IMG/VR virus record: IMGVR_UViG_3300025901_000004
Span: 1-41,731 of that record
DNA length: 41,731 nucleotides
Reading direction: 5' to 3' (one strand)
Source of the DNA: a virus
Shown here: in pieces, positions 2,951 through 39,275 of the stretch
Position numbering within the stretch: the first letter of the stretch is position 1
Layout of the letters: every line of letters starts with the position of its first letter
The notes under the pieces: model-generated
Seen by the model: the letters and a program-made list of their open reading frames with translations, nothing else
The model's database searches: none
What the model was told of the DNA's origin: nothing
Program-made: the position numbers and the translations under genes

Positions 2951-5900
2951 TCAAGACAGAATCGTATAGGTCACGGTCGCATCGGTCGCCCGAAGCGAAT
3001 AGCCGATGACCTGCGTGTTCTGGCCGTTGGTCAATTCCTCGACCGGATATTTGACATTCAACACCGTGCCGAACTCATGGCCGAACTCGCGGCGCGGCAG
3101 GGTGATGTCATAGATCCGACGCTTCTGGCCCCACAGTCCACCAAGCGCATTGGCGACATCCTGCGCGTTCGCCAGCGTCAGCAATGGACCGGGCATCGGC
3201 TGGAAGTCGTTGGGGCGTCGATAAGCCTGGAGGATCGTCGGGTCGAACCACGTGGCGAAGCGGTCGGGCGAGCGCACGAACTGCTGGCGCGCCGCGGTGG
3301 CGAGCGAGGTATTGATCGCGGTCAGCGTTGTATAGTTATGGGCGTAGCCCACCTTGAACCGATATGGCGGCGGATCGAGCGTCGCGGGCAGCTTGCGTCG
3401 CGACAGATGGATGATCTGTGTTTGGTCATAGGTTGCGGCGGGCACTGCGCTGCCGGAGAGTGCGCGCAGCAGCGTCAGCCGCAGCCTGCCGTCACGCGTT
3501 GGCACGAGATTGGCGCCTAATGATGCGAGTATTGTGTCGATCGCCTGAATGCTGGTCCACGGTTCATCGGAACCGAAATACACTCCAGCGACATAGCTCG
3601 GATATGCCGCGCGTAGAGTGTTGAAGCTGTCGATATCGAGCATAGAGCTCGGCAGCGCCATTTCCTCGGAGAGCAGATAGCGGCAGATGTCGAACGGATG
3701 CGAGATCGGCCCCGCTATCCCGAACTGACCGATGGCATCGACGGTGATTTGCCCGACCGGAAGACTGCCGAGCTGGAACATGCCGCGCGAATTGTCGGTG
3801 CGATACCGCCCGATCGGCGTCGTCCCGGCCCAGAGGTTGGTGGTGTCGCCCGCGAAGGTGATTGCCCCCGTGCCGGTGGCCGCCGCCTCATAGAGCGCGA
3901 TGACCTGACCAGGCTGATCGGAATATTGGTAGATGAACCCCGCTGGATTGGGATCGACCAATGTCGGGGTGATGTTCTGCACCGGTGATGCGACTGTGCC
4001 GCCGCGCAGCATCGGCTTTGGCTTGCCCGCGAGGTCGGGCGTGCCATCAGAGGTTCCGCCACCGTTGTAGAAATCGCTCTGCAATGGCTTTTCTAAAAAA
4101 TACGTTGCGTCCCGCAGTGGAATGGACAGACCGTCATCGGTGAGCGACCAGGGCGCGGCGAGTGCGGAGAACAGCACGGTCAGCGAGGCATAGGTCGGGT
4201 CGGTGAAATACTGCCGATCTTCGTCCCAGCGTTTACTGCCGGTCAGCAGACGGAGCGAGCGTCCGTCTGAATTCTGCAACCCGGCCTGAGTATCGAAGCG
4301 CTGGTCGGGATTGGCGAGCAGCACATTGCCCCAGGCGGCGGAGGCCGACGTGCGGGTTGGTTCAAGCGTTAATCCCGCATCGATCTGGTAGGCGTCCGAC
4401 AGCAGCGCAGGATAGGGGATCACGCCGCTCTGATCGGTCGGTGCACTGCGATAGCCGACGTCGGAGGCGCGAATAAGGCCGGTGATCTCGAGGCTTGTCG
4501 GTGGTAGGCGGGACAGCGTGCCGTGGGGGCGAGTGCCATGCGAATTGGTCGCCGTGACCGCCACGATGCCTGGCACGAACGTCTCAAGCTCCAGCGCAAC
4601 GAGGTCTGGTTCCACCCCCGCTGCGATGCCAGGACGCACTCTGGGCTTCTTGCGCACGCGCGGATTGGCGATGAGCGTGGCATTGGCGATGAGCTTTGCG
4701 CGGGCTGCCCCCTTCAGCGTGAGGGTTCCAACCTGGAGCGTGCCAGAGCCGGCGATTCTTGCCGTGAGCGGCGAGGCGCCACGCACCACCGCCGCCGCTC
4801 TTAGCGAACCGAGGCCGCGGAATGCCGCCCTGCCACGGTTGAACGGCTCTAAGACGTCTGTGTCCGCCGTTAATGAGCCGACACCCCGCACCGCGGCTCG
4901 GACAGAAAAACGCACCCCCGGTGTCGCTACGAGCGTGCCCGCGCCGTCGATCTGTGCGCTGGCGGAGCGGAGCGTGCGTGAGGCGTTGGCCGCGAACGAA
5001 CCGCGCCCGGTGAAATCAGCATGCGGTGCTGTGCTGATCCCGTTGGCCGTGAACGAACCGGCGCCAGGAAATGTGTAAGTGGTCGGCCGCAGCACCAAGG
5101 GTGGGGCATGCAGGAAGCTGCTGCCGTCGAGCGTGGTGTTGGCATCGACCGGCGCGGAGGCATGTGTGACGACCGCGTTGGCAGTGAGTCTGCCCGCGCC
5201 TTGGGTCTGCGCCAGCACGCCGAACGCCACGCCGGAGCCGAAGCTATCGTCGAAGACCGGATCCCACGCATCGCCGTCACCGGCGGGAGCTGCGAGAACA
5301 CTCGGTGTCAGCCAGCGCTCTGTCAGCCGATCCTTCAGCACCGCGTAGGGGCGTCGGTCGTGGGCCGCGACCTCGTTGGCGGCGAGTGCGCGTGTCCAAT
5401 AGAACACATCCGCCACAGGCCACGGCCATTCGATGCCGACCGTGACATCTGAGCCGAGCAGCGAGCGCAGCGTAAAGTTGGTGAATGCCTGGGTCGCCGT
5501 GCCGAGCCACGTCGTGCCGCCATCGACGTAGAGCGTGGCGACAGAACCAGATACTGTCACCGTGACCCGGTGCCATCCGGTCAATGCCGAAGCCAGCAAG
5601 GGGGAGCCTGATGAGAGAAAGGCGTTCTCGGCTGGGACATGCGTGCGGAAGGTGCCCGCCCCGACCGGCACGAACAGCGGCATGTGACCGGTATCGTCGC
5701 CCGCAAGGCCGGCGCCAATCGAACTAAAGCTGCCCGCCACTGGGCCCGTGCCGTTGAACCGCACCAGGGCGGAAAGGGTAAGGGCGTTGGTCAAGGCATC
5801 TTTGGGCGTCAAGGTCAGGCAGGGCGACGCGGTGGGGCCTGTGGTGCCGCCCAGGGCGCTGCGGACTTGCGCCCCGTTAGGGCCGCGGGAGGACACGATG

Positions 5901-21796: not shown

Positions 21797-21841
21797 GTGG
21801 GTGACTCCAATCAAAAATGGGATTAGTGCGTGGGAAACGCG

Positions 21842-23339: not shown

Positions 23340-23957
23340 TTAGATGGGAAGATCGCGATACGGCGCTAACATACTGGTCACATCGGCAGGCATCGCCGCA
23401 TCAGATCCGGGCACGATGCCCACCCAATACGACACGTTGTAGACACCGGGCACTTCTTCGCTGCGGATTGACGGATCGCGCAGCGCCGACGTTTTCCGAT
23501 AACGCATCAGCTGCAGACACGCACGTTCCAAGTCGTAGGGCAGCTCCCCAAGCAGCTGATAGCCCGCCTGATAATTAACGACGATCTCGCCGACCCAGCG
23601 ACCGAAGTTGCGATACAGCAGACCCTTGTTCGCATCCAACCGATAGTCGGTGGTTGAGAGCGATTGGGTTGGACTTGAAATGCTATCGATGATGGCGACC
23701 GGATAGCGCGACAGCGGCAATGGACCGATATGACCGCAGTAACCGCACTCAAACGTCTCGCGGACCTTTTCGCGACCGAGCACGCGGTTGACCTGCGAAT
23801 TGATCAGCGAGGATGCTTCGTGGATCCACCGCGCGAGTTGCGCATCCTGCGAGGTGTCAGCTTGTGAGATGCCTAGTTCGTCCTTGGCGGTGGCCAGAAC
23901 GGTGAGGTCTTGCGTATCCGCGACCTCGGTGATCTCCAGGCTCTGGCTATACGTCAT
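23340..23957 (-). CDS. Head-tail connector protein (gp6/gp15-like)
   Basis: 205 aa, ATG start overlapping the previous stop as ATGA. N-terminal part LTVLATAKDELGIS.ADTSQDAQLARWIHEASSLINSQVNRVLG is the classic helical start of HK97-gp6-like connector proteins, followed by a beta segment with a Cys pair (CGYC) and a C-terminal helix LERACLQLMRYRKTSA. It forms the ring under the portal that receives the closure and tail-completion proteins. No portal, capsid or terminase gene is in the window; they presumably lie to the right or elsewhere. Confidence 0.85.
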   Translation of the reverse strand: MTYSQSLEITEVADTQDLTVLATAKDELGISQADTSQDAQLARWIHEASSLINSQVNRVLGREKVRETFECGYCGHIGPLPLSRYPVAIIDSISSPTQSLSTTDYRLDANKGLLYRNFGRWVGEIVVNYQAGYQLLGELPYDLERACLQLMRYRKTSALRDPSIRSEEVPGVYNVSYWVGIVPGSDAAMPADVTSMLAPYRDLPI

Positions 23958-26275
23958 GCCAATTCTCTCTCCCCCGCCTGCCCTGAATACCTGCGATTGG
24001 TTGGCGAGGCCACGTCACCTCCTGTCCGTGCTAAGGCACCACCACGACCAGCCCTAGCCCAAGGTAGGCTGGGCGGAATGATGTGCGGATTGCAAAGCAG
24101 CGTGCCACCGCCATCGAACGTGGTCCGCGTCGCGGACGGATGCCAAGAGCCAATGCCGACGGCCTCGCTCTCACCAGACAGGTCGGCGGCGGTGGACCAG
24201 TTTTGCACAGGTGCGGGTATAACCATTGCGTTGGCGGAGAGCGTTCCAGCCCCGGCCATGCGTTGGACTGGAATGCCGGTTGCTTCGCCAGCACCGTCTA
24301 GCTCGACGGAGGCTGCCTGACGGACGACGTTGTTCGCAGTCAACGAGCTATTGGCGGTGACTGTTGCGGCTCCAGCCGCGATTAGCATGGCGCTCGCTAT
24401 GACCGCGCCAGTCCCCGCCTCTGTGCCGTCAGCGAATTGTGCTGGGATGCCTGTGCCGACGACCGCGCCGCTACCAGCAAGTATGGCAGTCGCGGCGTCG
24501 ATCGTATTGAGCTGATCGGCCGATAACGTGCCAAGTCCCGCCAGCGTCCCTAAACCTGCCGGGGCACCCGAAGCTGAATCAGCAGCGAAGCTGCCGACAC
24601 CAGCAAACAAGATCGTGGCGGATGGCGTGTGAGTGGCCGCTGCAGTGATGGCGCCGCTGCCGTCGAAGGCAGCTGTCGCCTGCGGAGTGTGCTCGCCGCC
24701 AGCGCTAAGCGTTCCACCACCATCAATCGCTGCGGCCGCGACGTCCCGCGTCACTGACGCGTTGTTAGTGCTACCCGTGCCGTCCAGTGCTGCCGCAGCC
24801 GCATCGACCTGAACGGGAATGGCGGCGAGCGTTCCTGCACCACGAATGATTGCCGACCCGCTGGCGACACCCGCGGTCGCTGACTCAGCTTGAAGCATAC
24901 CGCTGCCAGCGAGCGTGGCCGAAGCAGTCGGTGTATGCGTGCCCGCGGCTGACAGATTTCCGGTGCCAGCCACGGTCGCGGCGCCTAGATCCCGCTGGAT
25001 AGGCGTGACGGCCAACGTGCCGTCACCAGCCAAAGAGACGGTCGCCGTCGGGGTATGCGTCCCGGCAGATATCACTGCACCAACACCCGGCAGCGTCGCG
25101 GCGCCGAGCTCGACCTGCGTGGCAGTGGCACCGAAGTTGCCGCCACCCGCGAGGGTCGCGGCACCGGATGGCATGTGCTGGCTATCGGCAGTTACGGCGC
25201 CTGCACCAGCAAGCGTCGTAGTGGCAAGCTGCCGCTGAATGGGGGACGCCGTTACCGACCCGGCTCCGGGAAGCGTCGCAGTGGCGATCTGCCGCTGGAC
25301 GGCCGATCCTGTCAGCCCACCCGCACCATTAAGCTGAGCTGTGGCGCAGACGGCTGGCGCTGACGTCAATGAACCCAGGCCGGGGAACGTCGCAGTGGCG
25401 AGTTCTACTTGGACTGGCGTCGCCGTTAGCCCGCCAGAACCAGCGAATGTCGCGGTGGCAAGCAGTTTGGCAACTGGGCTTGCCACAGTTGTGCCAACGC
25501 CCGGCAGTGCTGCACTGGCGAGCAAAACTTGTTTGGCGCTGACCGTGAGCTGGCCAACGCCAAGCTCGGTGGCGATGCCTAACTCCCACATGATCGCTGT
25601 CGCGACCACAGATCCTGTCCCGGCTACTGTTGCCGTGCCGGTTTGCGTGCTCGGCCCACCACCACCAGCCGGCGTCAATGCTATTGTGAAAGTTACCCAG
25701 TTACTGGCGGTTCCAAGGTTAGCGTTTAGCGATCCCGTGGACCCTGCCGTTGCTTTCACCATGTCAGCGATTGCTGATATGCCGCCGCCGGCACCCGATG
25801 CGGCAACCTCCTCTGTAAACCCCGCCGGCCAAGAGCTCGCATTAGAGATAGTAGAAGTAAGCCCGAGAATTACATCTTCACTGTTGGCGCTAGTCGTTAT
25901 AGCCGACCAGGTTGCCGTCCCGGATTGGCCGGAGGAACCGGAGTTATTTACAGCAGATACATCAACCCCGACAGTGCTTGCATATTCTGCTATGACAACA
26001 GACGAGTAAGTGCCGCCAGAAAAGCTGAAACTGTAGTTTGAAGGAACTGAACTTAATATTATTGAGTAGGCACCGCCGTTCACAAAAAAGGGATTCGAAG
26101 CCCCTCCGGTCTGGATTGTAGTCCAGCCCCCCGGTGGGGTGATGGTCGCAGAGGCGGTATGGTAAACTGTTACTATCGCGATTAGGACGTTGCCCGTGGT
26201 CCACCCGCCAACCGGTTGATTTACCGTGACTGAAGTGGAGCCGGAACCCGTCGCGGTGCTGACTGGAAGGGGCAC
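23954..26275 (-). CDS. G-x-G-S-L-T-A repeat fibre protein (773 aa)
   Basis: 773 aa, GTG start with AAAGGG 7 nt upstream. Residues 1-205 are a beta-rich globular head (SVTVNQPVGGWTTGNVLIAIV; PPGGWTTI; SSVVIAEYAS; ...WVTFTIALTPAGGGG) as in many phage adhesin N-termini. Residues about 205-745 are some 26 imperfect units of about 20 residues with a Gly-x-Gly turn. The last approximately 60 residues (WSTAADLSG..., TRTTFDGGGTL, PHIIPPSLP, RRYSG) match the end of the 1127-aa protein encoded upstream. Probably an elongated fibre. It directly precedes the connector gene. Confidence 0.65.
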   Translation of the reverse strand: MPLPVSTATGSGSTSVTVNQPVGGWTTGNVLIAIVTVYHTASATITPPGGWTTIQTGGASNPFFVNGGAYSIILSSVPSNYSFSFSGGTYSSVVIAEYASTVGVDVSAVNNSGSSGQSGTATWSAITTSANSEDVILGLTSTISNASSWPAGFTEEVAASGAGGGISAIADMVKATAGSTGSLNANLGTASNWVTFTIALTPAGGGGPSTQTGTATVAGTGSVVATAIMWELGIATELGVGQLTVSAKQVLLASAALPGVGTTVASPVAKLLATATFAGSGGLTATPVQVELATATFPGLGSLTSAPAVCATAQLNGAGGLTGSAVQRQIATATLPGAGSVTASPIQRQLATTTLAGAGAVTADSQHMPSGAATLAGGGNFGATATQVELGAATLPGVGAVISAGTHTPTATVSLAGDGTLAVTPIQRDLGAATVAGTGNLSAAGTHTPTASATLAGSGMLQAESATAGVASGSAIIRGAGTLAAIPVQVDAAAAALDGTGSTNNASVTRDVAAAAIDGGGTLSAGGEHTPQATAAFDGSGAITAAATHTPSATILFAGVGSFAADSASGAPAGLGTLAGLGTLSADQLNTIDAATAILAGSGAVVGTGIPAQFADGTEAGTGAVIASAMLIAAGAATVTANSSLTANNVVRQAASVELDGAGEATGIPVQRMAGAGTLSANAMVIPAPVQNWSTAADLSGESEAVGIGSWHPSATRTTFDGGGTLLCNPHIIPPSLPWARAGRGGALARTGGDVASPTNRRYSGQAGERELA
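24045..25660 (-). repeat. Tandem G-x-G-S-L-T-A protein repeat array, about 26 units
   Basis: Units average 19-21 residues with a consensus of ATLxGxGSLTAxxxQxE or AxHTPS. Codons are diversified, so this is an old expansion rather than a perfect DNA repeat. The array creates long open frames on the opposite strand, which are not genes. Boundaries are approximate. Confidence 0.8.
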
Positions 26276-26280
26276 TATTT

Positions 26281-26296
26281 ACCCTTTCCAAAGGGT
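26281..26296 (-). promoter_or_regulatory. Hairpin containing the ribosome-binding site of the 773-aa fibre gene
   Basis: The mRNA reads ACCCTTTGGAAAGGGT and then GTG 6 nt later. The right arm is the Shine-Dalgarno sequence of the 773-aa gene and the left arm overlaps the stop codon of the preceding gene. A ribosome finishing that gene would open the hairpin, which would couple the two translations. Confidence 0.45.
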
Positions 26297-26757
26297 CAGC
26301 TTAATGTCGCTAGAAAGGCACTTACTGCGGACATGATGCTAGGAGCCTGTGCGGCCGTCGCCGTGGCCCACACTTCGCCGAGAGTGTCTGACCAAGATCG
26401 ATCCAAAAGTTTACCATTGCCGTCGTGTGGGTATTGAGCGGCAATGGCCGTTAGAATATTGCCTGCAGCTGTCCTCATGTTGGTGAAGTCAGCGGCACTA
26501 AATATTACTCCGGGAGCCTGCTGCTGCGAATAGGCGACAATGCTGGTGGCTGTTGTCTGATCAGCGGTATATTGATCATAGATCTGCCTCAGCATTAACG
26601 TGTCCTGCGCCAATGTGAGGAATACCCTAAGAGAGCAAGCGGCGCCGCCCGCTGTGCTAGATTGTAAATTAAGACTGTCGGCTTGCACCCTTTTGATGGC
26701 ATTCCAAAGCGTTTGATATTCGCTAGCGACTTGGCCACCGGAGATCGGTAAGGACAT
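26296..26757 (-). CDS. Hypothetical helical protein
   Basis: 153 aa from ATG at 26757 (a TTG 21 nt earlier is possible; neither has a strong Shine-Dalgarno sequence). Predicted mostly helical, with segments TLWNAIKRVQADSL, FLTLAQDTLMLRQIYDQYT and MRTAAGNILTAIAAQYP, one Cys and no signal or membrane helix. It lies between two long repeat-fibre genes, so a fibre chaperone or trimerisation helper is a plausible guess. No family recognised. Confidence 0.6.
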   Translation of the reverse strand: MSLPISGGQVASEYQTLWNAIKRVQADSLNLQSSTAGGAACSLRVFLTLAQDTLMLRQIYDQYTADQTTATSIVAYSQQQAPGVIFSAADFTNMRTAAGNILTAIAAQYPHDGNGKLLDRSWSDTLGEVWATATAAQAPSIMSAVSAFLATLS

Positions 26758-26824
26758 CGGTTCTCTGCTCTCAATCAATTCGGCAATAACAATGCGCTGC
26801 CGTGCTGGGTGGCCAGTTCTTCCC

Positions 26825-29800
26825 TTACGTTACGCCGACGGCCAATCCGCTATAGCGACGCGGCGTTGCGAGTGCTGTGCCGCCAGGACCGCGGGCCTGA
26901 GCGCCCCCTAGCGACGGTCCAACCAGGGCTGGAGGAATGACGTGTGGGCTGGCAAACAGAACCGCGCCACCCAAGAAGTCGGTGCGGGTCGATGACGGCA
27001 GGAAGTTCGTCGTCGCCGATGCGGTGCCGTCACCGTGGATATCGGCGGTGACAGACCAGTTCTGCACCGACGCGGGAATCACCGTGGCATCGGCGCTGAG
27101 CGTGCCAGAACCACTCATGCGCTGTATCGGTGTAGCGCTGACGACGCCCGTGCCGTCGATCTCTGCAGAGGCTGCGCGGCGGAGGGCGGTATTCGCGGTC
27201 AGCGACCCTGCGCCGCCGAACGTGGCGGAAACAGCGGCGGCGAGCGTGCCGGTGGCAGTAATCGAGCCAACGCCCGCTGTCGTCCCATCGCCGAACTGGC
27301 AGGGAATGCCGTTGCCGATGACGGTGCCGACGCCCGCAACCGTCGCACTGCTGGCGGCAATAATATTGAGACTGGACGCGGTAAGTGAGCCAGCGCCGAC
27401 TATGGTCGCCGAGCTTGAGCTAGCTCCCACCGGAATTGCGGTAAGGCTGCCGACGCCGTCGAGGCTCCCGGCACCGTAGGTGATCCGTAAACCTTCGGCC
27501 GCGACAGTGCCTGCGGCGGAAACGGTCGCGGCCGCGAGGAGGCGCGCCCGTTCGGTCGCTGTCAGTGTGCCATCAGCTGGGAAGCTGACATTCCCCGCTT
27601 GGCGCTGGATCGGATCGGCGATGGTGAGCGAGCCGATGCCAGTGAATGTGGCAGCGCCGTTCTGCACGCCCGCCTGGGTGCCGTCAGCGAACAGGGTCCC
27701 AACCGCGGTAAGCGCGGTGGAAGCGATAAGGCGAGCGATGACGGTGGTTGTCAGACTGCCGTCGCCAGACTGCGTGGCAGAGGTAACCAGCTGGCCGACT
27801 TCGGCTGAACTTGGCTGGCCGACACCTGCGAGCGCAGCGCTTCCTGCTACCAGCAAGACCGCCGTCGCGCTGAGCGAACCGGCTCCGCCGAACGTCGCGG
27901 CCCCGCTCTGCACTCCAGCGGTCGCGGCCTCCGCCGTGAGGCTGCCGATGCCAACAAGTGTGGCGCTGGCCGACGGTGTATGCGTGGCGTTCGCTACCAG
28001 AGCGCCATCACCCGGCAGGGTTGCTCTGGCAAGACCGACCTGGGTGGTGCTGGCCGTCAGCGCTCCCACGCCGTCGATCTGCGCGGTGGCCTCTGGTGTG
28101 TGTGATGCGTTTGCGGTGAGCGAGCCTGTGCCATCGAGCAGTGCACTGGCGAGATCCACTTGGGTCGGCGTTGCGATAATGGTGCCGACGCCCGGCAATG
28201 TGCCCGAGGCGAGCTCCCGCTGAACTTCAGTGGCAATGATGGTGCCGCTGCCAGGGAGCGTTGCGGTGGCAAGTTCAATCTGGACTGGGCTGGCGGTAAG
28301 CGTGCCACTACCTGCGAAGGTCGCGCCACCGAACTGCTTGCCTGCGACCGTTGCATCGGCGCTCATGCCGCCGACGCCAGGAAGTGCCGCGTTGGCCTGC
28401 CATATCTGCGCCGCTGCGGCGCTGAGGCTGCCGTCGCCGTTTACGGTGGCTTGACCGCTGGGAGAATGCAGCCCGCCTGCGGTCAGCGCACCAACGCCCG
28501 CGAGTGTCGCGGTATCGAGCAGTCTAGCGACTTCCTGGGAAGACAGCTGGCCGACGCCTGCCAGCGTCGCGGCCGCCAGTTCGACCTGGGTTGAGTTGGC
28601 TGTTAGGTTCCCGCTACCCGCGAGGATTGCTGCACCTGACGGTGTATGCGTGGCGTCGGTAGTGACTGCGCCGGTTCCACCAAAGGTGGCCGAGGCGGCC
28701 TGATATTCGATCGTTGCGGCGGTTAGGCTGCCGAGGCCAGGGAACATTGCCGACGCCGACGGCGTATGTAGGCCGTCAGCCGAGAGGCTTCCTGCGCCTC
28801 CCAAAGTTGCGGTTGCGATCTCCCGCTGCACTTCCGCCGCGGTGAGCGAACCCACGCCGTCGATCTGCGCGGTGGCCCCTGGCGTATGGCTGGCGTTACC
28901 TACGACCGACCCGATTCCGGGCAGCGTCGCGGAGGCCAGCTCGTATTGGATAGGTGTGGCAGTGAGCGCACCGACGCCGGGCAGTGTATCGCTGGCCGCT
29001 TGGTATTGGATCGCGTTGGCAGTGAGCGAGCCAGCGCCAGCGAAAGTCGCAGCACCCGACGGTGTGTGCGTGCCGTCCGCGGTGAGGCTGCCTAAGCCAC
29101 CGAGTGTCGCGCTGGCGATCTCTCGCTGAACTTCGGCGGTAATGACGGCGCCGATACCAGAGAGCGTTGCTGCTCCGGTCGGTGTGTGTGTGCCGTCGCC
29201 CGCCAGCGCGCCAATGCCAGGAAGTGTGGCGGTGGCAATATGGAGATCAACGCCTGCCGCGGTTAGGCTTCCGGCGCCGGGAAGCGTCGCAGCACCAGAA
29301 GGCGTGTGCGTGCCGTCAGCCAAAAGGGCGCCAACGCCCGCAAGCGTCGCATTCCCCTGTATGGGGCTAGCGACGACTGTCGCATTAGCAGTGAGTCCGC
29401 CGACGCCCGCGAAGGACCAAGCGGCAGGCCGCGGCAGCGCAGCCAAGCCGCCAGCGCCATCGATCTCAGCCGAGGCGGCGCTGATCGTGATAGCGTTAGC
29501 CGTAAGCGACCCGGCCCCACCCAGTTCGCGCGTGGCGACGAGAAGCGGCTGGACTCTAAGTTGGCCGCGGCCTCCCGTAGCACCCGAGCCGGTCGACGTA
29601 TTTGCGCCGCCGCCGCCGCCTGGTGCGCCTGAGGTTCCAGCTGGGTTACCCGCAGTGGAGCCGCCGCCACCCTCTGCATTCGACGTGTTAGCCGCACCGC
29701 CACTGCCGTTATCGCCGGTGCCGCCCGTGCCGGTCGTCGCGCTGGTGCCGGCGCCGTCCTTACCAGCCGAGCCGCCACCACCCCCGCCCTGGACGCGCGT

Positions 29801-30208
29801 CGCGCCGTTGCCGCCATTGAACGCGCCAGTCGTTGGGATGCAGGATGCAGCAGCCCCGCCGGTGCCGCCCGTGGTGCCTGACGTCGCACCGCCACCCTTC
29901 GCAAGCAGGGTCGTGTTTGATTTGAACCAGGTATCAGGACCAACCGAAGAGTTGGCCGCAGCTGTCCCCGCGCTGCCTGTATTGAGGAAAAAGGCGATCG
30001 TGGTCGCCGTAATATCGGCAGCCAGTATCGTATAGGTCAGTAGCGCATAAGCGCCACCAGCGCCGCCTGAACGAAAGGAGGTGCTGCCGCCAGAGCCACC
30101 CGATCCGGCGCCCCAAGCCTCGACCCTTACGAGGTCCCCCGCGACCATGTTGGACGGGATTGCCCAAGTCTGGTTTGAGCCAGACGTCGTGATGATGAGG
30201 GAGCTCAT
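26825..30208 (-). CDS. Glycine-rich and G-x-G-S-L-T-A repeat fibre protein (1127 aa)
   Basis: 1127 aa. Residues 1-225 are a beta head (IITTSGSNQTW, EAWGAGSGG) followed by a loop zone very rich in Gly, Ala, Thr and Ser (runs of Gly near 145 and 200), similar to glycine-rich adhesin tips of phages. From about 228 to 1100 there are roughly 42 imperfect units of 19-21 residues with the Gly-x-Gly turn and the SLTA strand. The C-terminal approximately 60 residues (QNWSVTADIHGDG, TRTDFLGG, PHVIPPALVGPSLGG, RRYSG) match the 773-aa protein. Such a periodicity would fit a beta-solenoid or triple-stranded fibre. No hydrolase signature seen. Confidence 0.65.
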   Translation of the reverse strand: MSSLIITTSGSNQTWAIPSNMVAGDLVRVEAWGAGSGGSGGSTSFRSGGAGGAYALLTYTILAADITATTIAFFLNTGSAGTAAANSSVGPDTWFKSNTTLLAKGGGATSGTTGGTGGAAASCIPTTGAFNGGNGATRVQGGGGGGSAGKDGAGTSATTGTGGTGDNGSGGAANTSNAEGGGGSTAGNPAGTSGAPGGGGGANTSTGSGATGGRGQLRVQPLLVATRELGGAGSLTANAITISAASAEIDGAGGLAALPRPAAWSFAGVGGLTANATVVASPIQGNATLAGVGALLADGTHTPSGAATLPGAGSLTAAGVDLHIATATLPGIGALAGDGTHTPTGAATLSGIGAVITAEVQREIASATLGGLGSLTADGTHTPSGAATFAGAGSLTANAIQYQAASDTLPGVGALTATPIQYELASATLPGIGSVVGNASHTPGATAQIDGVGSLTAAEVQREIATATLGGAGSLSADGLHTPSASAMFPGLGSLTAATIEYQAASATFGGTGAVTTDATHTPSGAAILAGSGNLTANSTQVELAAATLAGVGQLSSQEVARLLDTATLAGVGALTAGGLHSPSGQATVNGDGSLSAAAAQIWQANAALPGVGGMSADATVAGKQFGGATFAGSGTLTASPVQIELATATLPGSGTIIATEVQRELASGTLPGVGTIIATPTQVDLASALLDGTGSLTANASHTPEATAQIDGVGALTASTTQVGLARATLPGDGALVANATHTPSASATLVGIGSLTAEAATAGVQSGAATFGGAGSLSATAVLLVAGSAALAGVGQPSSAEVGQLVTSATQSGDGSLTTTVIARLIASTALTAVGTLFADGTQAGVQNGAATFTGIGSLTIADPIQRQAGNVSFPADGTLTATERARLLAAATVSAAGTVAAEGLRITYGAGSLDGVGSLTAIPVGASSSSATIVGAGSLTASSLNIIAASSATVAGVGTVIGNGIPCQFGDGTTAGVGSITATGTLAAAVSATFGGAGSLTANTALRRAASAEIDGTGVVSATPIQRMSGSGTLSADATVIPASVQNWSVTADIHGDGTASATTNFLPSSTRTDFLGGAVLFASPHVIPPALVGPSLGGAQARGPGGTALATPRRYSGLAVGVT
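26950..29530 (-). repeat. Tandem G-x-G-S-L-T-A protein repeat array, about 42 units
   Basis: Units alternate two ending types: one with THTPSGA or SHTPE, the other with xVQRE, IQYQ or TQVE before the next A-T-L-x-G. This suggests an original two-unit (about 40-residue) duplication. Boundaries are approximate. Confidence 0.85.
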
Positions 30209-30235
30209 GCGCTGGCTACCATCATCTCATCGCCT

Positions 30236-31093
30236 TCACCAACGCAGCGTCGAGCCTATCATCCGCTCCACTGCTGTTCCTGCGATGCTGCCAACACCCG
30301 CTTCGGTGGCTACCCCGGTCCACGTCACACCAATGGTTGGCACGAACAGTGGGCGGCCTGGCAGATATAGAGGCGCCAGCGGCTCGATATAGAGCCGCCG
30401 GATTTCTTCTGGCTTTAACGCACGGTTCCAGATGCCAACCTGCGTAAGCCCGCCAGCATAGTAAGCATTGGCCAGGTGATTATCGCCGAATTGCAGCGTG
30501 ACCGGATTGGTGTTGTTTATCGTGGTGACGGCTGCATTGCTGCCGCCCGAGACGCTGTTGACATAAATCCCTACCGTCGCGCCGTCGAACACGCCAACGA
30601 TATGGTTCCAGGTGTTTTCGACCACGGCTGCTGCGTCGGGCGACAGAAAGCCAGTGCCGCTCGAATTGCTGATTCCGAACTTAAATCCACCGGTAACATT
30701 GTCGGAGTGAGAAATGTCGAATTGATCGTTGACCGACCCACCATTCACTGCGCTCACGGCGAACGCCCAGTGCGCTGGTGCGAACGAGGGCCGCACCCAG
30801 CATGATACCGTCAGCGCATTGGTCGGCAGCTTGACACTATACCCGGTATCGATGTTCGTCGCGCTGTTCGGGAACTCCAGTGCGCGACCAAACTTAGACC
30901 CAGTGCGGACGATCGCTCCGGTCCAGGTCGCCGCCGTTTTGCATCGGCCGCAAACATCGATGACTTTGGTGCCAACGTTTTCATTCAGCGGAAACCAGTG
31001 CAGCAACCCAGCGGTCAGGCTGTCAGCCCAGTTTATGCCAATAGCTCCGCCGTCCGCTACAACCGAGAGCTTTGTGGCGCGGATGCCGAACAA
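30236..31093 (-). CDS. LamG-like fibre protein
   Basis: 285 aa from TTG at 31093, two bases after the previous stop (TAGAC-TTG). Longer starts overlap the previous gene and encode sequence unlike the fold. The domain spans about residues 25-235: LLHWFPLNE, VIDVCG, FGRALEFPNS, ALTVSCWVRP, NTWNHIVGVFDGATVGIYVNSV, VTLQFGDN and AGGLTQVGIWNRALKPEEIRRLY, the classic LamG/concanavalin-like jelly roll with the closing W-R-L motif. The last approximately 30 residues contain one G-x-G-S unit (GVGSIAG) of the neighbouring repeat type. Probable carbohydrate-binding tail-fibre subunit; it belongs to the same run of fibre genes. No catalytic motif. Confidence 0.75.
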   Translation of the reverse strand: MFGIRATKLSVVADGGAIGINWADSLTAGLLHWFPLNENVGTKVIDVCGRCKTAATWTGAIVRTGSKFGRALEFPNSATNIDTGYSVKLPTNALTVSCWVRPSFAPAHWAFAVSAVNGGSVNDQFDISHSDNVTGGFKFGISNSSGTGFLSPDAAAVVENTWNHIVGVFDGATVGIYVNSVSGGSNAAVTTINNTNPVTLQFGDNHLANAYYAGGLTQVGIWNRALKPEEIRRLYIEPLAPLYLPGRPLFVPTIGVTWTGVATEAGVGSIAGTAVERMIGSTLRW

Positions 31094-31095
31094 GT

Positions 31096-31584
31096 CTAGA
31101 CAACCGTATAGGTAACGCCAGTATACGTCTTCTGATGGCTGCCTTCGCTGGCATCTAGGTTCTGCCCAGTATAGTTCTGCAATACGAAGCCCCATTTGCG
31201 GGGGAGCACACCGCCAAAGAACGAGGCGATCGGAATGACAGCGCGATAGGTCACGGAAACCGCTGGGCAAGACAGCACGAAGGGGCCGCGCATGTTCGAT
31301 GGCACGCCGAGGGTGACGGCAACGTCGGTGCTGACCGCTTCGGCCGATGACGCGCCGTAGACCGTGCCGTCTTCCGAGCCGTAGATGTAGATGTAACAGG
31401 CCTTGTCGTTGGCGAGCGCGCTGGCGCTGGTCTTTACCGCAATGGTCAGCAGCGCATCATCAAATTCATTGGAGCCGTTATCCACCGCTACACAGCTACG
31501 CCCGGCGGTCGACGATGATGCAAGACTGGCTAGCGTGCAGGTGATTGCGGTGCTGGTGCCATACTGGATGTTTTGAACCGCCAT
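31096..31584 (-). CDS. Hypothetical beta-rich tail protein
   Basis: 162 aa, ATG start overlapping the region just after the previous stop (TGACATG). All-beta composition: SLASSSTAGRSCVAVDNGSNEFDDALLTIAVKTS, ACYIYIYGSEDG, ...GPFVLSCPAVSVTYRAVIPI, FVLQNYTG. Its pattern resembles that of the 146-aa protein at 6.1-6.5 kb and the N-terminus of the large GH protein (central GS.DG block), which suggests a shared docking fold. Function not known; probably a small fibre adaptor. Confidence 0.55.
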   Translation of the reverse strand: MAVQNIQYGTSTAITCTLASLASSSTAGRSCVAVDNGSNEFDDALLTIAVKTSASALANDKACYIYIYGSEDGTVYGASSAEAVSTDVAVTLGVPSNMRGPFVLSCPAVSVTYRAVIPIASFFGGVLPRKWGFVLQNYTGQNLDASEGSHQKTYTGVTYTVV

Positions 31585-31585
31585 G

Positions 31586-31939
31586 TCATGCCACCGTTAT
31601 CTGCGTCCAGGATGTTCCGTCGTAGAACGTGCCATAGCGGTTGAATGGGTTCATCGCGGTTAGCGCGCTCTGTGCAGCGTTAAACCGCGCCACGAGGTCA
31701 GCAGCTATGGTGGCGATCAGTGTGCCAAGTGGATAGTTGACTTCCTCGACATGCTCGACGACAGAACCGTTCTGCAGCGCCGTTAGTTCCGGCGCAGTTG
31801 CGCCCACTACGCGCGATCTGGCGGTTGCATTGGCATAGAACGATTGGCGGGCGGCGGGCACCGCCAGCCAGAACGCCACGTTATACCGCAGATCACTTGG
31901 CAGGCCCGGCTGATCGAGAATAATGATCTGTCGTGCCAT
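31586..31939 (-). CDS. Hypothetical tail protein
   Basis: 117 aa. ATG start 8 nt after AGGAG, which overlaps the stop of the previous gene (TAGGAG). It begins MARQIIILDQPG and ends NRYGTFYDGTSWTQI, with a helical middle (VNYPLGTLIATIAADLVARFNAAQSALTAM). No domain recognised. It is conserved in style with fibre-associated small proteins: soluble, no signal, W/Y-rich end. Its neighbours are the SPRY-like and the beta-rich docking proteins, so a structural accessory role is likely. Confidence 0.55.
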   Translation of the reverse strand: MARQIIILDQPGLPSDLRYNVAFWLAVPAARQSFYANATARSRVVGATAPELTALQNGSVVEHVEEVNYPLGTLIATIAADLVARFNAAQSALTAMNPFNRYGTFYDGTSWTQITVA

Positions 31940-31949
31940 TGTGTCGCTC

Positions 31950-33095
31950 CTACATAGCCACGAAACCGGACGGCGGCGTGTAACTCCACGTCGCTACGGT
32001 TGGCTTCATGTCGACTGTGTCAGCCTGTCCCCAACTCAGCGAAATCGCGATGCTGACGCCACCGACCCGCAACCCAGCTGGAATGTCGGCGCCACCCTGA
32101 TTGGTCGCTGGGTTCTGTGTGCCAAATCCGAATGGGCACCAGCCGCCACCATTGAGTCTGGCCCAGAATTTCCAATGGTCACAGTCTATCGCCACCGAGA
32201 CGATGCTATCCTCTTGCGGAGGCGCCATACCGCCAGAGCCGTAGATGGCCTCCTCGGCGCTGTCATACATATCGGTGCCGGTGCCGTCGAAGAGGTCGTA
32301 GATGCCGAAGCTGTTCTGATCGACCCCGACAAAGTCATCGGCGTTGTAGGACGGATTGGCGATTCCGTAGCGTGTATCGCCTTGGCGGAACCCGAAATAC
32401 AGTTCGACATACCACTTGCCGGTCGTCTTGAACGAATTACCGGTGGCAGATACCGGCGTCGTGTCAGTATCGTCGTGGTTGTCCCTGACCGTTAGGTTGC
32501 CATTCTCGCGGACGATGTTCGGCCCCGCCGCCCATACCATACTGCCGGCGCGTTGTGCGTTGGCCGTGAGGCTGCCGACGCCACCTATCGTGCGCGTTGC
32601 CCGCATTCGCTGCTTCGCGGTGGGAACCAGAACTCCTGATCCATCCATTTCCTGCGAGCCGACGAGCCGCCGCACCGGCGTGGGCACCACCAAACCACTA
32701 CCAGCCGGGGACGCGACGCCAGAGTTGCCTTGCCTAAACGTCCCAGTGAAAGACCCGCCACCCGCGCCATCGAAGGTAGCGACCGCTCCAACCAGTTGCG
32801 CCCCCGGCAAATGCGCCTCAGCGACCAAGCGTCCCGCCCCGCGCATGGCGATATTGCCAACGATGTTAGCGGGCTGGAATACCGTGACGACACGGATCGC
32901 CAGGTTCTGGTCGATCCACAACCGTCCGACCGGTAGGCCAGCAGGTGAGCGCGGCAGCGAGGATAGGTCGGTCGTCTCCAACGAAATCGACACCACCGCG
33001 TCGCGCACATCCTGCTCGTTGATCGAATGCGGCAGCTGTCCACTAGCGAACAGGCTGTTGATTAGCTCATCGACAGTGCGGACAGTTTCTACCAT
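31950..33095 (-). CDS. Fibre protein with VDEL module, G-x-G-S-L-T-A repeats and SPRY-like domain
   Basis: 381 aa, ATG start overlapping the preceding stop (TAAATG). Residues about 3-65: TVDELINSLF, INEQDVRDAVVSI and LPRSPAGLPVGRLWID, a module shared with the next two upstream genes. Residues about 75-180: several G-x-G repeat units (MRGAGRLVAEA, FDGAGGGSFTG, IGGVGSLTANA). Residues about 185-381: SPRY/concanavalin-like fold (GKWYVELYFGF, RYGIANPS, VGVDQNSFGIYD, SIVSVAIDCDHWKFWARLNGGGW). Such domains bind sugars or proteins in phage fibres. The module at its N-terminus probably anchors the fibre. Confidence 0.7.
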   Translation of the reverse strand: MVETVRTVDELINSLFASGQLPHSINEQDVRDAVVSISLETTDLSSLPRSPAGLPVGRLWIDQNLAIRVVTVFQPANIVGNIAMRGAGRLVAEAHLPGAQLVGAVATFDGAGGGSFTGTFRQGNSGVASPAGSGLVVPTPVRRLVGSQEMDGSGVLVPTAKQRMRATRTIGGVGSLTANAQRAGSMVWAAGPNIVRENGNLTVRDNHDDTDTTPVSATGNSFKTTGKWYVELYFGFRQGDTRYGIANPSYNADDFVGVDQNSFGIYDLFDGTGTDMYDSAEEAIYGSGGMAPPQEDSIVSVAIDCDHWKFWARLNGGGWCPFGFGTQNPATNQGGADIPAGLRVGGVSIAISLSWGQADTVDMKPTVATWSYTPPSGFVAM

Positions 33096-34142
33096 TTAGA
33101 ACGGCCGCGACGTCCACATGTTGATCGAGTCGATGTGCGCGCCCTTCGGCAGACCCGCCGGGTTGACCGTCGTGGTGCTGGGACCAAAGTTGGTCTGGCA
33201 ATACATCTTCAAGTAGCGCGCTACCCCATCGGAGTATGGGCCACCCGGGTTGCCAAAGCTGCCAACCTGTTGCCGGTCTCTATAAAGACGAACCGCCGAT
33301 GGCGTCCATTCTATCCCGTAGGCATGCTGCACGCTGGCATCCCATCCCCCATTACTGTCGTAACTGGCGTCTATTGGCGCGTCATAGGCGAACTGCTGAA
33401 CCAGCTGCACGTTCCCAGCGTCGGTCCAGATACGCACAGGACAAATGGCGGACCAGGCGAATGGAGGCGGTGTTATCCAAGCAATCTCAAAGAACAGTCC
33501 TGGATAGCGGTCGACGGCTACGGCTATTTCCACGTAGCCTTGGTATTGCGAAAAGTTATTTGGCGCATTGAATGTATCTGTCATCCCACTGGTGAGTGAC
33601 TTACCACCAGAGGCAATGTTGAGCATGTTTAGGTTTAGTCGGCCACCGGTGAAAGTGAAGATCTGCGGTGTGAGTCCGGGATCATCCGACCAGAATGCGT
33701 CGCCACCTTCGTCGAAGCTATCATAATTCCACTTATTGGCGTCATGCGAGTTGAAGTTATCTGAAAAGCTCGTCCCCTGGTTCGGCGGGTTCGGGGTGAA
33801 CACCGTCGCATTGGCGCCGAACGTGCCGCGGCCGGCGTATTGCGTTCTAGCGAGCATGCGTTGGCGTGGGGTTGCGATAGCGAGTGCCGCGTTGCCAGCG
33901 CCACGATAATTGCCTAGCCGCGTTCCCGGTCCGCCACCCAGCGACATCTGCAGCACATCGTCGTTCAGCCATAGGAAGCCTGGCTGCACATTAGCGGGCG
34001 TTGCTGGCAGGCCGGTGAATAATCCTGTTGTGGGATGCAGTGACTGGATCATGTCCTGGAAGTAGACCGGCGTAATGGCCTTCGGTGGCAGCCCCTCGCG
34101 GAACATCGCCAGCAGTTCATCAACCGTGCGGTTTGTGGCCAT
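33096..34142 (-). CDS. Fibre protein with VDEL module and divergent GH16/lectin-like domain
   Basis: 348 aa, ATG start overlapping the previous stop (TGATG). Residues about 3-65 carry the VDEL module: TVDELLAMF..., YFQDMIQS, LPATPANVQPGFLWL. Two G-x-G-x-x-x-A units follow (GAGNAALAIA, GRGTFGANA). Residues about 125-345 form a concanavalin-like jelly roll similar to GH16 (YQGYVEIAVAVDR...FFEIAWI, HAYGIEWTPSAVRLYRDRQQVGSF). The ExDxxE motif of active GH16 enzymes is not visible: FEIAWI stands roughly where it would lie. A binding role is more likely than hydrolysis. Confidence 0.65.
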   Translation of the reverse strand: MATNRTVDELLAMFREGLPPKAITPVYFQDMIQSLHPTTGLFTGLPATPANVQPGFLWLNDDVLQMSLGGGPGTRLGNYRGAGNAALAIATPRQRMLARTQYAGRGTFGANATVFTPNPPNQGTSFSDNFNSHDANKWNYDSFDEGGDAFWSDDPGLTPQIFTFTGGRLNLNMLNIASGGKSLTSGMTDTFNAPNNFSQYQGYVEIAVAVDRYPGLFFEIAWITPPPFAWSAICPVRIWTDAGNVQLVQQFAYDAPIDASYDSNGGWDASVQHAYGIEWTPSAVRLYRDRQQVGSFGNPGGPYSDGVARYLKMYCQTNFGPSTTTVNPAGLPKGAHIDSINMWTSRPF

Positions 34143-34498
34143 CAGATGTTCACCTTAACCACACCGGCGCTATCCACCCACACCCGGCCAGCGGGCAATC
34201 CGCTGGTGGAGCGCGGCAGACGCGAGAAGTCAGCGGTTTGCAGCGCCAACGATATGACGGTTTCTCGGCAGTCCTTGGCGTTAAGCTGATTTAATCCCTG
34301 ACCATCCGCCCAAATCACCGTCAGCAGTTCTGTCAGCGAGCGCAGCGTATCGCTGGTGTCAGCGGGTGCACCTGGCTCGGTAATGACGAAGGAGCGCTGC
34401 AACGCGCCATAGGCATTGTTCGAGGTAGCGGTGATATTAAGGCCATAGCTGCCTGGCAGCAGCGGTTGTGCGGTAAACAGACGATAGGTAAAGCTCAT
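34142..34498 (-). CDS. Small fibre fragment: partial cadherin-like domain plus VDEL module
   Basis: 118 aa. Residues 1-43 (LLPGSYGLNITATSNNAYGALQRSFVIT) match only the end of the cadherin-like domains seen in the 778-aa and 1876-aa proteins, so the domain is truncated. Residues about 50-118 are the VDEL-type module (LTELLTVIW, DCRETVISLALQT, LPRSTSGLPAGRVWVD) that in the next two downstream genes sits at the N-terminus. It may be a remnant of a larger gene or a genuine small anchor subunit. It begins 2 bp after the previous stop, so it is still expressed in phase with the operon. Confidence 0.55.
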   Translation of the reverse strand: MSFTYRLFTAQPLLPGSYGLNITATSNNAYGALQRSFVITEPGAPADTSDTLRSLTELLTVIWADGQGLNQLNAKDCRETVISLALQTADFSRLPRSTSGLPAGRVWVDSAGVVKVNI

Positions 34499-34500
34499 AT

Positions 34501-36837
34501 CTATGCTGGCATCGGGATGCGGCGAATGTTGCCGCTATCGCTCGCCTGCCAGACCGTGCATGAGTAGACAGTCATTGGGTTCTGTGGATTGCTACCTAGC
34601 AACAAGCGGAAATGGCACCTGTCCATAACTGCCAGGGCATTGCTCTTGGAACCTTCCCAGTTTGAGCCGTTATACAGGCTCCAGGTGTAAGTCCTGCCGA
34701 CCTGCGTATTATTGAAGTAGCTCTTCAGTGACCCCCGGCTTGAGCCTGTCGCCGGCACCCACAGCCAGCCGAACGTGTTTCTCTGCGTGTAGTTGGCTCC
34801 GGGTGGACTTACCCCATTCGGCTCCCCGTTGTCCGTATTGTTATACAAGCCTCCTGACCCGTTCCACAAAATCCAACCAGCGTTGTAGTCTGTGCCATTT
34901 GGCGCTAGGAACTCTGCCGCATCCCACTCAATACCCTGTTGGTCCGGCAAGTTATTTGGCACATCGTTGTAAAGTCCTTCGGCATTGTTACACCACCATG
35001 CCGGCCATCCGCCTGGGTTGTTGCCGCCTAGAATATTTCCTGCGATCGACATTTGGACTTCAAAATATCCACCTCCCCCGAAGGCGATGCCCGGCATATT
35101 CCCGCCTGGGCCGCCTGAGGTCGAGATGCATTCGTTGTAGTGGTATTGATCTTCTGACAGGAATATCGATCCGTCCGCATTTTGCCTTGCTGTCTCTGCC
35201 GTGACGATCCAGTTCACACCGCGGGTCACATTTGGCCCGTGTGTGCGAAGGTTGTAGCCAACCGCTTGCGCTTGCGCCGGAACACCGCCGGATTGCGTCG
35301 CAACTGGTCTGATTGATATTGCGGACGTCGGCGCCCCAGACCCCGCGCTGTTGGTTGCATATACGCGCGTCGAGTATGTCGTGTTGGTGGTCAGATTGGG
35401 GATATTGACCGAAGCAAGCGGAGTAGATGTAGGCCCGCCCCAAGCGACGCTGCCACCATTGGCTCCTAGAGCCCCACTCGGCGCGTAGCTATACCACTCG
35501 CCGCCGACGTTAACGTGCCAGACAACGCCATTGACCATTATGACGGTTGTCGCATTCCACCCATTTGCGAAAACGCCGTTCACCACCACCGCGTCTGTCT
35601 CGCCACCACCGCCCGGGCTTACCGAGACTATCGCCCAGGTATTGTTGAATGTGTCAACCACGCTACCCGTGCTGGGCGTGCAATAAGGCGTCGTCGGCCC
35701 ATTGTCAGTGAAGGTTGCGGACGTGGTATATTGCAGCTGATATCTGCCTCTATCGAGCACCCCACCAGCGGTCGGCGGGTCCCAGCCAACAATTGCTGAA
35801 TTTGACGCGACGCTAATTTGCCGAAAGTTAGTTGGAATTCCAGGCAATGGTGCGGAGGCCTGCGTCGCAACGTTTACCGCAGCACTGGTAGTTCCGGTTC
35901 CGGCACTATTGGTGGCAAAGCCGCGTATATTGTAGGTCGTCGCAGCGACCAGTCCGGCGATCGTCTGCCTGTATGGCGTTCCAGTATTATCTTGCGTCCA
36001 GCTTACCGGAATGCCGCCCGGCGAACGAAACCAGACATTGGACATGTTCAAGGTCCATATCAGGCCCCCGCTGCGAATAATGTTCTGCACCGTCGATGCC
36101 GTATCGACGAAGGTCCCGTTGCCCACCGGATGGTTTTGCGCATTCAGCGTCCAGGTAACGCCGGTCGCATCCGCCACTGAACCATGCCCCGATGTGCAGT
36201 AAGTGACCGCTTGGGCATTCTGATACGTTGTGGCGGCGTTGGTCTTATATTGGATTTGGTGCAGGCCATTGTCCAACGCGCCACCGGTCGTCGGCGGCGC
36301 CCACAAGACGTCGATCGTGGTGCTGGTCTGCACCGGCGAGGAAATGCTGGTCAGCGGACCTGGCACCGCCGCCGTAGCCTGAACCGTTATCTGAAACGGC
36401 ACCGACAACACCTGATTCTGGCTGGCAAGGTCAGTGGCAGTGATGGTTATAGGATACGTCGTGCCGTTGGTTAGGGTTGCGGCGACGAACAGATTGGAAC
36501 CAGAAATCGAAAACCGACTATCGTTGACCGCGAGCCCGCCACCGAACGCGGTCTGGTCCGATAAGACGACGGATATTGTGCCGATCAGCGAGCCGACCGG
36601 CGGATTGGCGGCCAAAGACTGATTGCTCAAAGATATAGAACTGATCGTATAGGGATCGCGCGTGGCGGTCACCGTGAACGATCCGGCGTATGGCCCGCCC
36701 AACGTAACCGTCCCAGAGAACGGCGTGCCATCACTGGTAGATACAGTGATCTGACCGACCAATGTTCCAGGCGGCGCGCTCTGCGGCAGCTGTAGGTTAG
36801 ACAGCGCGATGTTGGTGATCGTCTTGCTGCCCGACAT
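34501..36837 (-). CDS. Fibre protein with cadherin-like, fibronectin-like and GH16-like domains
   Basis: 778 aa, ATG start overlapping the preceding stop (TGATG). N-terminal approximately 150 residues are cadherin-like repeats (NLQLPQSAPPGTLVGQITVS; ...SLSNQSLAANPPVGSLIG). Two FN3-like domains follow (about 157-330 and 335-515; W.PPT.GG.LD.G.YQ.QYTT, ATTYNIRGFATNSAGTG), each interrupted by an inserted W-W module. Residues about 520-778 are a GH16-like jelly roll with the ExDxxE signature at 637-642 (EWDAAE), most similar to the 411-aa protein upstream of the tail tube. Probably a polysaccharide-degrading fibre; GH16-type activity is likely but untested. Confidence 0.7.
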   Translation of the reverse strand: MSGSKTITNIALSNLQLPQSAPPGTLVGQITVSTSDGTPFSGTVTLGGPYAGSFTVTATRDPYTISSISLSNQSLAANPPVGSLIGTISVVLSDQTAFGGGLAVNDSRFSISGSNLFVAATLTNGTTYPITITATDLASQNQVLSVPFQITVQATAAVPGPLTSISSPVQTSTTIDVLWAPPTTGGALDNGLHQIQYKTNAATTYQNAQAVTYCTSGHGSVADATGVTWTLNAQNHPVGNGTFVDTASTVQNIIRSGGLIWTLNMSNVWFRSPGGIPVSWTQDNTGTPYRQTIAGLVAATTYNIRGFATNSAGTGTTSAAVNVATQASAPLPGIPTNFRQISVASNSAIVGWDPPTAGGVLDRGRYQLQYTTSATFTDNGPTTPYCTPSTGSVVDTFNNTWAIVSVSPGGGGETDAVVVNGVFANGWNATTVIMVNGVVWHVNVGGEWYSYAPSGALGANGGSVAWGGPTSTPLASVNIPNLTTNTTYSTRVYATNSAGSGAPTSAISIRPVATQSGGVPAQAQAVGYNLRTHGPNVTRGVNWIVTAETARQNADGSIFLSEDQYHYNECISTSGGPGGNMPGIAFGGGGYFEVQMSIAGNILGGNNPGGWPAWWCNNAEGLYNDVPNNLPDQQGIEWDAAEFLAPNGTDYNAGWILWNGSGGLYNNTDNGEPNGVSPPGANYTQRNTFGWLWVPATGSSRGSLKSYFNNTQVGRTYTWSLYNGSNWEGSKSNALAVMDRCHFRLLLGSNPQNPMTVYSCTVWQASDSGNIRRIPMPA

Positions 36838-37389: not shown

Positions 37390-37785
37390 TTAGGTCAGTG
37401 TATGGACTAGACTTCCGGCATTAAACACAAGAGAGTCCCCCACGCCGAGGGTTCTTGCAGTCGCAAGTGTCCCATACCACCACATGGTGCCATTTCCGGT
37501 TGTGCCGTGGTCCCAGACTTGCAACCCAGCGACGGTGCGGGCGCTGGAGAACGGACCGAAGGTAAATGCGCCGGAGTTTGCCGCTGATTGTCCTGCAGCG
37601 ACTGCGCTGAGGTAGGTTACAAGCTGGCGGGTCACGCCTTCACCAGTCGCCATCTCGCTGGCAGAAATGCTCGACGGCGTGCCAAGCGATAGTCCGACCG
37701 CTCGTGTCGCCATAGTAGTCGCTGCTTTACCACCCAGATGCCAGTCCAAGAGCGCCACGCTGGCACCCGTGCTAATGCCCGTCAT
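37390..37785 (-). CDS. Gp80-like small tail protein
   Basis: 131 aa from ATG at 37785 with GGGAGAA 6 nt upstream (an in-frame GTG at 37800 is less likely). The pattern ALLDWHLGGKAATT.AT-AVGLSLGTPS.ISASEM..GEGVTRQLV..., FTFGPFSSARTVAGLQVWDHG, GTMWWYGTL and GDSLVFNAGSL agrees with the small tail-fibre-associated Gp80 family found in many phages. It probably forms part of the distal tail. Its leader contains a competing hairpin (see regulatory site). Confidence 0.65.
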   Translation of the reverse strand: MTGISTGASVALLDWHLGGKAATTMATRAVGLSLGTPSSISASEMATGEGVTRQLVTYLSAVAAGQSAANSGAFTFGPFSSARTVAGLQVWDHGTTGNGTMWWYGTLATARTLGVGDSLVFNAGSLVHTLT

Positions 37786-37791
37786 CGTAAG

Positions 37792-37829
37792 TTCTCCCAC
37801 GCGCTAACGCGGGAGAACCATTCTCCCGC
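37792..37829 (-). promoter_or_regulatory. Competing hairpins around the ribosome site of the Gp80-like gene
   Basis: The minus-strand leader reads GCGGGAGAA, TGG, TTCTCCCGC (37829-37809), then GTTAGCGCGT, then GGGAGAA (the Shine-Dalgarno sequence, 37798-37792). The central TTCTCCC can pair either with the upstream copy or with the Shine-Dalgarno copy. There is no T-run, so it is not a clear terminator. Confidence 0.4.
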
Positions 37830-39014: not shown

Positions 39015-39017
39015 CTA

Positions 39018-39248
39018 TCACCCATCTAGTTCTGCGAGAATTGGCCAGACCGATGCTTCGGAGAAATATCCGGTGCGGCGAATGAACGTGCGCCCCTGAT
39101 AGCTAATCAGATCGGTATTAATTCCAGTTGGTATCTGCACGGTAACGTGCTCGCCACGTCCTGCGTAGCGCAGCACGACGTCTTGTGTCTTGCGAACTGG
39201 CTCAGCAGCTCTCGGCGCTTCATACGCCGCCATTCGATCTGGTTTCAT
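39018..39248 (-). CDS. Small hypothetical protein
   Basis: 76 aa, ATG start with GGGAGG 6 nt upstream. Predicted small beta fold (VVLRYAGRGEHVTVQIPTG, LISYQGRTFIRRTGYFS). No family recognised. Lies between the methyltransferase fusion and the glycosyltransferase, with no gap big enough for a promoter. Possibly an assembly or regulatory partner. Its ribosome site sits within a perfect small hairpin. Confidence 0.5.
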   Translation of the reverse strand: MKPDRMAAYEAPRAAEPVRKTQDVVLRYAGRGEHVTVQIPTGINTDLISYQGRTFIRRTGYFSEASVWPILAELDG

Positions 39249-39254
39249 GTGATA

Positions 39255-39269: not shown

Positions 39270-39275
39270 GACGGA

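Follow-up and report, generated by a model that had tools for sequence, protein, structure and literature searches.

What are the two long proteins, filled for most of their length with one short repeated unit, that lie among the structural genes of a virus known from sequencing, and what might they do for it? The DNA that we analysed is an IMG/VR virus record of 41,731 bases, hereafter the window. Its minus strand encodes the genes of a long-tailed phage, namely a tail tube, a tail terminator, a tape measure, a head-tail adaptor and a tail-collar fibre. The two repeat proteins, gp1127 (26825-30208) and gp773 (23954-26275), are on the same strand and are separated by the gene of a 160-aa protein (26296..26778, minus strand), relatives of which also adjoin the array genes of a related viral contig, L007. 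We consider it likely that the repeat is a DUF2807/Toastrack-type beta-helix coil, from which phages build stems that can be extended and that carry interchangeable adhesin heads.

The repeat itself is remarkably regular. The units of the two proteins were counted with an ungapped 20-position scoring matrix derived from them. In gp1127 there are 41 (residues 222-1049); in gp773 there are 24 in unbroken succession (residues 210-691) and a further isolated weak match at the N-terminus. Shuffled controls gave 0.44 and 0.22 units, respectively, with a maximum of 2. A prior sequence-only reading of this DNA had described a unit of about 20 residues and estimated about 42 and about 26 copies; the unit, its coordinates and these counts were right. 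The unit length is almost exactly 20 residues, as is the unit-to-unit spacing, with rare exceptions of 17-23, and self-identity peaks at lags of 20 and 40, with even lags scoring above odd ones.

This even-odd pattern is also seen within the unit. The conserved positions are 4 (A/G), 6 (A), 8 (L/F), 10 and 12 (G), 14 (L/V) and 16 (A). The even positions from 4 to 16 have high position information and are Gly, Ala or hydrophobic in 94% of cases, and the odd positions are 46% Ser/Thr. Across about 50 loci, 482 spacings between neighbouring units are even and 58 are odd, with classes at 18, 20, 22, 36 and 40, as predicted by a coil with strict in/out alternation.

The two proteins share a simple anatomy. 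In gp1127 the array (27062..29545, minus strand) accounts for 73% of the protein and follows an N-terminal Gly-rich head (29546..30208) that matches Gly_rich_2 (PF21722, E 8.9e-8). In gp773 the array (24203..25648, minus strand) makes up 62% of the protein and is preceded by an N-terminal head (25649..26275). Sequence comparison shows that both proteins end in a common C-terminal tail of about 80 residues (26825..27061 in gp1127, 23954..24202 in gp773).

To which known repeats is this unit related? A profile of nine units, built from a 25-row alignment of the window and related viral contigs, was compared with PDB sequences. It matched six structures of the DUF2807 type (3jx8, 3pet, 3lyc, 4opw, 3ljy and 4ygu), the best being 3jx8 (E 1.1e-6). 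With gp1127 as the only query, just 3jx8 and 3lyc were matched, and weakly. A control profile made from 17 of the 25 rows, in which the 20 unit positions were permuted while period and composition were kept, matched nothing among the PDB sequences. Likewise, a comparison by hhalign with DUF2807 proteins from Massilia genomes scored 91.3% (E 9.7e-7) against 0.04% for the permuted control. The match is confined to the repeat coils, and the heads that precede the arrays are various domains, among them Gly-rich and LamG ones. The Massilia proteins carry Gly-x-Gly at residues 76/78, 96/98, 116/118, 136/138 and 156/158. This 20-residue period of Gly-x-Gly in a beta-helix coil, a trait of DUF2807, is thus present in the phage unit. 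The Pfam model for DUF2807 (PF10988, cut-off 24.2 bits) scores 31.8 bits against one phage member (L010) and 13.6 bits against the window's own array.

Other repeat families were also considered. Of the 25 array sequences, 9 match the PHROGs family phrog_23524 (best E 2.2e-13) and 10 match phrog_31951 (best E 3.6e-7). The filamentous haemagglutinin repeat Fil_haemagg (PF05594) matches three of the 25 (best 1.5e-5), the window's own member not being among these. The earlier statement that no repeat name fits is therefore correct for named fibre repeats and incorrect for the DUF2807/Toastrack coil and the two PHROGs families. The RTX or calcium-dependent ice-binding beta-roll was rejected despite a VIA-align Z-score of 14.0 to 3p4g, as the unit counts show no GGxGxD-type calcium motif and no Asp two residues past the second Gly. 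The curlin repeat was rejected too, as no curlin family appears among the Pfam matches of the 25 members (E up to 1).

Structure prediction points in the same direction. From the 25-row alignment, AlphaFold2 predicts the nine units at gp1127 residues 362-541 as a regular beta-solenoid in which every unit contributes two strands, each about six residues long (pLDDT 80.8, pTM 0.73; the five models range from 61 to 81 in pLDDT). Full-length gp773, modelled from a five-sequence alignment, gave no confident model (pLDDT 39). VIA-align places the nine-unit model close to 3lyc, a DUF2807 structure (Z 13.7), to the FHA secretion domain (Z 13.0) and, close behind, to other beta-helices; these Z-scores do not tell DUF2807 from other beta-helices. 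A Foldseek search of PDB with the same model had no significant match (best E 0.035). The structural results therefore back the beta-helix class, and the DUF2807 family link rests on profiles of a compositionally simple repeat. Taken with the PDB profile and hhalign matches, they bear out the regular beta-solenoid that had been suggested from the sequence. The triple-stranded stem suggested alongside it is not supported, as the relatives that were found are single-chain right-handed beta-helices.

The unit is not limited to the two long arrays. Its recurrence in SPRY-like, GH16-like, LamG and hub proteins, claimed from the sequence alone, is real, with weaker runs by matrix counts. The LamG protein (30236..31111, minus strand) has one unit at its end. 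The SPRY-like protein (31950..33095, minus strand), which has no Pfam match, consists of an N-terminal adaptor, two to four units (two strong ones by the matrix, about four by motif) and a C-terminal head. The GH16-like protein (33096..34142, minus strand), for whose name there is a weak NCBIfam match (7e-4), has the same adaptor, one unit and a C-terminal head. Finally, a 1041-aa hub-like protein hosts three to four units (4853..5092, minus strand) between an N-terminal LamG and a hub domain. In most cases such a short run has a head on one side and an anchor region on the other.

Some further relationships among these genes are worth recording. A 118-aa protein (34142..34498, minus strand) has the same adaptor as the SPRY-like and GH16-like proteins (31950-34498 for all three), an 'RTVDEL' N-terminal region of about 65-110 aa that is probably a shared attachment adaptor. 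A domain of about 250 aa, GH16-like in the naming of the sequence-only reading, is found in three proteins of the phage at 59% and 48% identity: an fn3 protein (34501-36837), a 417-aa protein before the tube gene (20561-21814) and the middle of a 1876-aa protein (6516-12146). A 146-aa protein (6079-6519) and the N-terminus of this adjoining 1876-aa protein share 47% identity, which suggests a likely duplication.

Comparisons between relatives illustrate how such arrays evolve. In two close relatives, L007 and L008, the counterpart of gp1127 has 46-47 units and that of gp773 has 24. Aligning these with the window reveals a single gain or loss, a block of about 122 residues (six units) in gp1127; gp773 shows no such block. 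The proposal that phages lengthen and shorten the stem is thus borne out by one whole-unit block (47 vs 41 units), the single length change seen. Most other units pair one-to-one between the window and L007. The identity of best matches averages 0.72-0.75, compared with 0.30-0.34 between units of one array, so the arrays appear to be old and stable. Recent tandem amplification at the DNA level was rejected, as the best unit-to-unit DNA identity inside the arrays averages just 0.56-0.62.

The heads tell a different story. Between the window and L007 the arrays are 73-74% identical and the C-terminal tails 63% (gp1127) and 93% (gp773), while the gp1127 head is 42% identical and the gp773 head is replaced by one of another kind, a Gly-rich head. 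At the sequence level, heads change faster than the stem. A further example is the contig L062, whose LamG head is 62% identical to that of the window and is fused directly onto a long array, whereas the LamG protein of the window ends after one unit. In array proteins of other phages, Pfam identifies LamG, GDSL lipase, GDPD, apiosidase, metallophosphoesterase and F5/8C domains. The idea of one stem grafted onto different heads is borne out by these comparisons.

How widespread are the arrays? We scanned IMG/VR with a degenerate DNA pattern encoding ATLxGxG[S/T]LTA. This located 66 stretches, 49 of which encode at least three units, placing arrays in at least 49 other viral contigs. Among cultured phages, arrays are found in the Methylophilales phages MEP402 (gp62) and Venkman (gp51). 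A different, 20-spaced pattern had only seven matches across about 85,000 genomes of bacteria and archaea and no phage array; one of these (L084) is a DUF2807-like protein, the sole genome match with comparable Gly-x-Gly coils, and the rest are chance or RTX. Searching named phages with the arrays by tblastn returned little or nothing, the most likely cause being that the low-complexity filter hides the array query, and DNA patterns took its place. In the open-access literature on DUF2807, Toastrack or beta-solenoids and phage fibres we found no description of this repeat.

Gene neighbours give an indication of where the proteins may sit on the virion. The first gene of the cassette encodes a phrog_240 protein (37390..37800, minus strand). 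Using a local profile of this family, and the 35 array genes with at least 1.5 kb of upstream sequence, we find a phrog_240 gene upstream of 26 (same strand, within 3.5 kb), and within 130 bases in 13 of these. This pairing is not built in, since the loci were located through the repeat alone. In MEP402, gp62 directly follows the phrog_240 gene. The family profile matches PDB 8jou chain a, a 'virion-associated phage protein', with an E-value of 3.5e-37; the window's own copy matches weakly (0.0056). Entry 8JOU is linked to the tail fibres of podophage GP4 in PMC13243795. From this relative and the synteny, the phrog_240 protein probably attaches the cassette to the virion, and gene order and fused heads lead us to infer that the array proteins are virion fibre proteins.

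An unlikely alternative, which concerns location only and fits the beta-helix fold too, is that the arrays form fibres of the capsid head and not of the tail or neck. The PHROGs label for phrog_240 is 'head protein', the cassette lies between this gene and that of the head-tail adaptor, and in L020 and L041 the array genes are downstream of the major capsid gene. Against this, the neighbours of phrog_240 in several named phages are tail or fibre genes: phrog_240 comes after the minor tail proteins in Mycobacterium phage Laurie and shortly before pectin-lyase-like and tail fibre genes in BcepMigl. Furthermore, its solved relative belongs to the tail-fibre structure of GP4, and the hub protein carries units too. 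The gene neighbours and the 8jou match suggest that phrog_240 is better read as a part of the fibre attachment, and that the label 'head protein' may mislead.

Directly upstream of phrog_240, the cassette is preceded by a GT9 (heptosyltransferase-family) gene and one for a protein with two methyltransferase domains (37887-40778). The order methyltransferase, GT9, phrog_240, array is the same in L057, and GT9 genes are also present in the contigs of the other close relatives (L007, L008 and L062). About 11 further array contigs have other glycosyltransferase genes, 9 over the cut-off, as raw counts with no background rate. In L045 (1789-4344), the phrog_240-array pair is separated from the major capsid gene by glycosyltransferase and GDP-mannose-dehydratase-like genes, the latter assigned by eye. 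In the E. coli adhesin TibA, the beta-helix is known to be glycosylated by TibC. By analogy, the GT9 enzyme might glycosylate the Ser/Thr-rich outer face of the stem, resulting in a sugar-coated phage stem, an idea to which we give little credence; these enzymes could equally target DNA, host glycans or other virion proteins.

What, then, would the stem look like? We propose that a single chain winds into a right-handed beta-helix of the DUF2807/Toastrack type, in which every 20-residue unit makes one coil, with two short strands and Gly-x-Gly at the turn. Given the computed conservation and strands, the small and hydrophobic residues at positions 4, 6, 8, 10, 12, 14 and 16 would point inward and the Ser/Thr-rich positions outward. 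From one to at least 47 coils would then form a rigid stem or spacer between a conserved anchor and a variable domain of a binding or enzyme-like kind, holding the two apart. The beta-helix rise is about 4.8 Å per coil, so the stems would be about 20 nm long in gp1127 and about 12 nm in gp773. The heads would be Gly-rich, LamG, SPRY-like and GH16-like in the window, and GDSL lipase, GDPD, apiosidase and phosphoesterase in other phages. Candidate anchors are the C-terminal tail for gp1127 and gp773, the N-terminal adaptor for the SPRY-like and GH16-like pair and, for the tail hub, its hub domain. Length would change by gain or loss of whole-coil blocks, and heads would be swapped while the stem is kept.

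Two other readings of the array itself need to be weighed against this. The repeats of three chains could interdigitate into a trimeric fibre, either a triple beta-spiral or a triple-stranded beta-helix, an arrangement that many phage fibres have. Trimers are indeed the rule among known phage fibre shafts, and in/out alternation with a Gly-containing turn also fits a triple beta-spiral. Nevertheless, the sequence relatives are single-chain beta-helices and the monomer alone is already predicted as a solenoid (pLDDT 81), which makes an interdigitated trimer improbable in our view. Tailspike-like trimers, with solenoids packed side by side, would be compatible with the single-chain beta-helix. 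It is very unlikely that the array is a flexible low-complexity linker and the solenoid an AlphaFold artefact of repetition. The 20-residue spacing is strict, with positional conservation maintained across phages, the units are mostly one-to-one orthologous (72-75% identity between relatives vs about 30-34% within an array) and permutation abolishes the DUF2807 match. What speaks for a linker is the simple Gly/Ala/Ser/Thr composition, the poor full-length gp773 model (pLDDT 39) and the precedent of phage LSH1, where hallucination or a repetitive motif is suspected behind poor beta-helical predictions beside a lyase-like domain (PMC13243795, 2026). The LSH1 region in question, a poorly predicted 'beta helix' by the lyase-like domain of gp34, may by analogy be a comparable stem.

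Beta-helical adhesins are already known from phage tailspikes. On our best reading, the new element is a known fold in a new phage use, as a modular beta-helix stem for adhesins. This provides a fold and a testable role for an unnamed repeat that is carried by many uncultured phages and filed under 'unknown function', together with natural examples of head exchange and stem length change. If true, a beta-helix coil of bacterial type serves phages as a stem that can be lengthened.

Several known systems resemble parts of this arrangement. The proteins of phrog_23524 and phrog_31951 are phage proteins with the same repeat, for which PHROGs does not record function, fold or a stem role. The tail-fibre assembly of GP4 (8jou) includes, as chain a, a relative of the phrog_240 family whose window member opens the cassette. 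FHA (1rwr), a two-partner-secretion haemagglutinin, also has coils of about 20 residues in a long right-handed beta-helix; unlike Fil_haemagg/FHA, the phage arrays are encoded in phage structural clusters. The closest parallel is DUF2807/Toastrack (PF10988; 3jx8, 3lyc, 4opw), a right-handed single-chain beta-helix (the fold is described in PMC11237479). Like the phage unit it has Gly-x-Gly every 20 residues and alternating conserved positions, and the phage profile match to it is lost on permutation. In bacterial proteins DUF2807 forms a domain of about 180 aa whose N-terminal region is special, whereas the phage arrays have up to 47 coils and adhesin heads.
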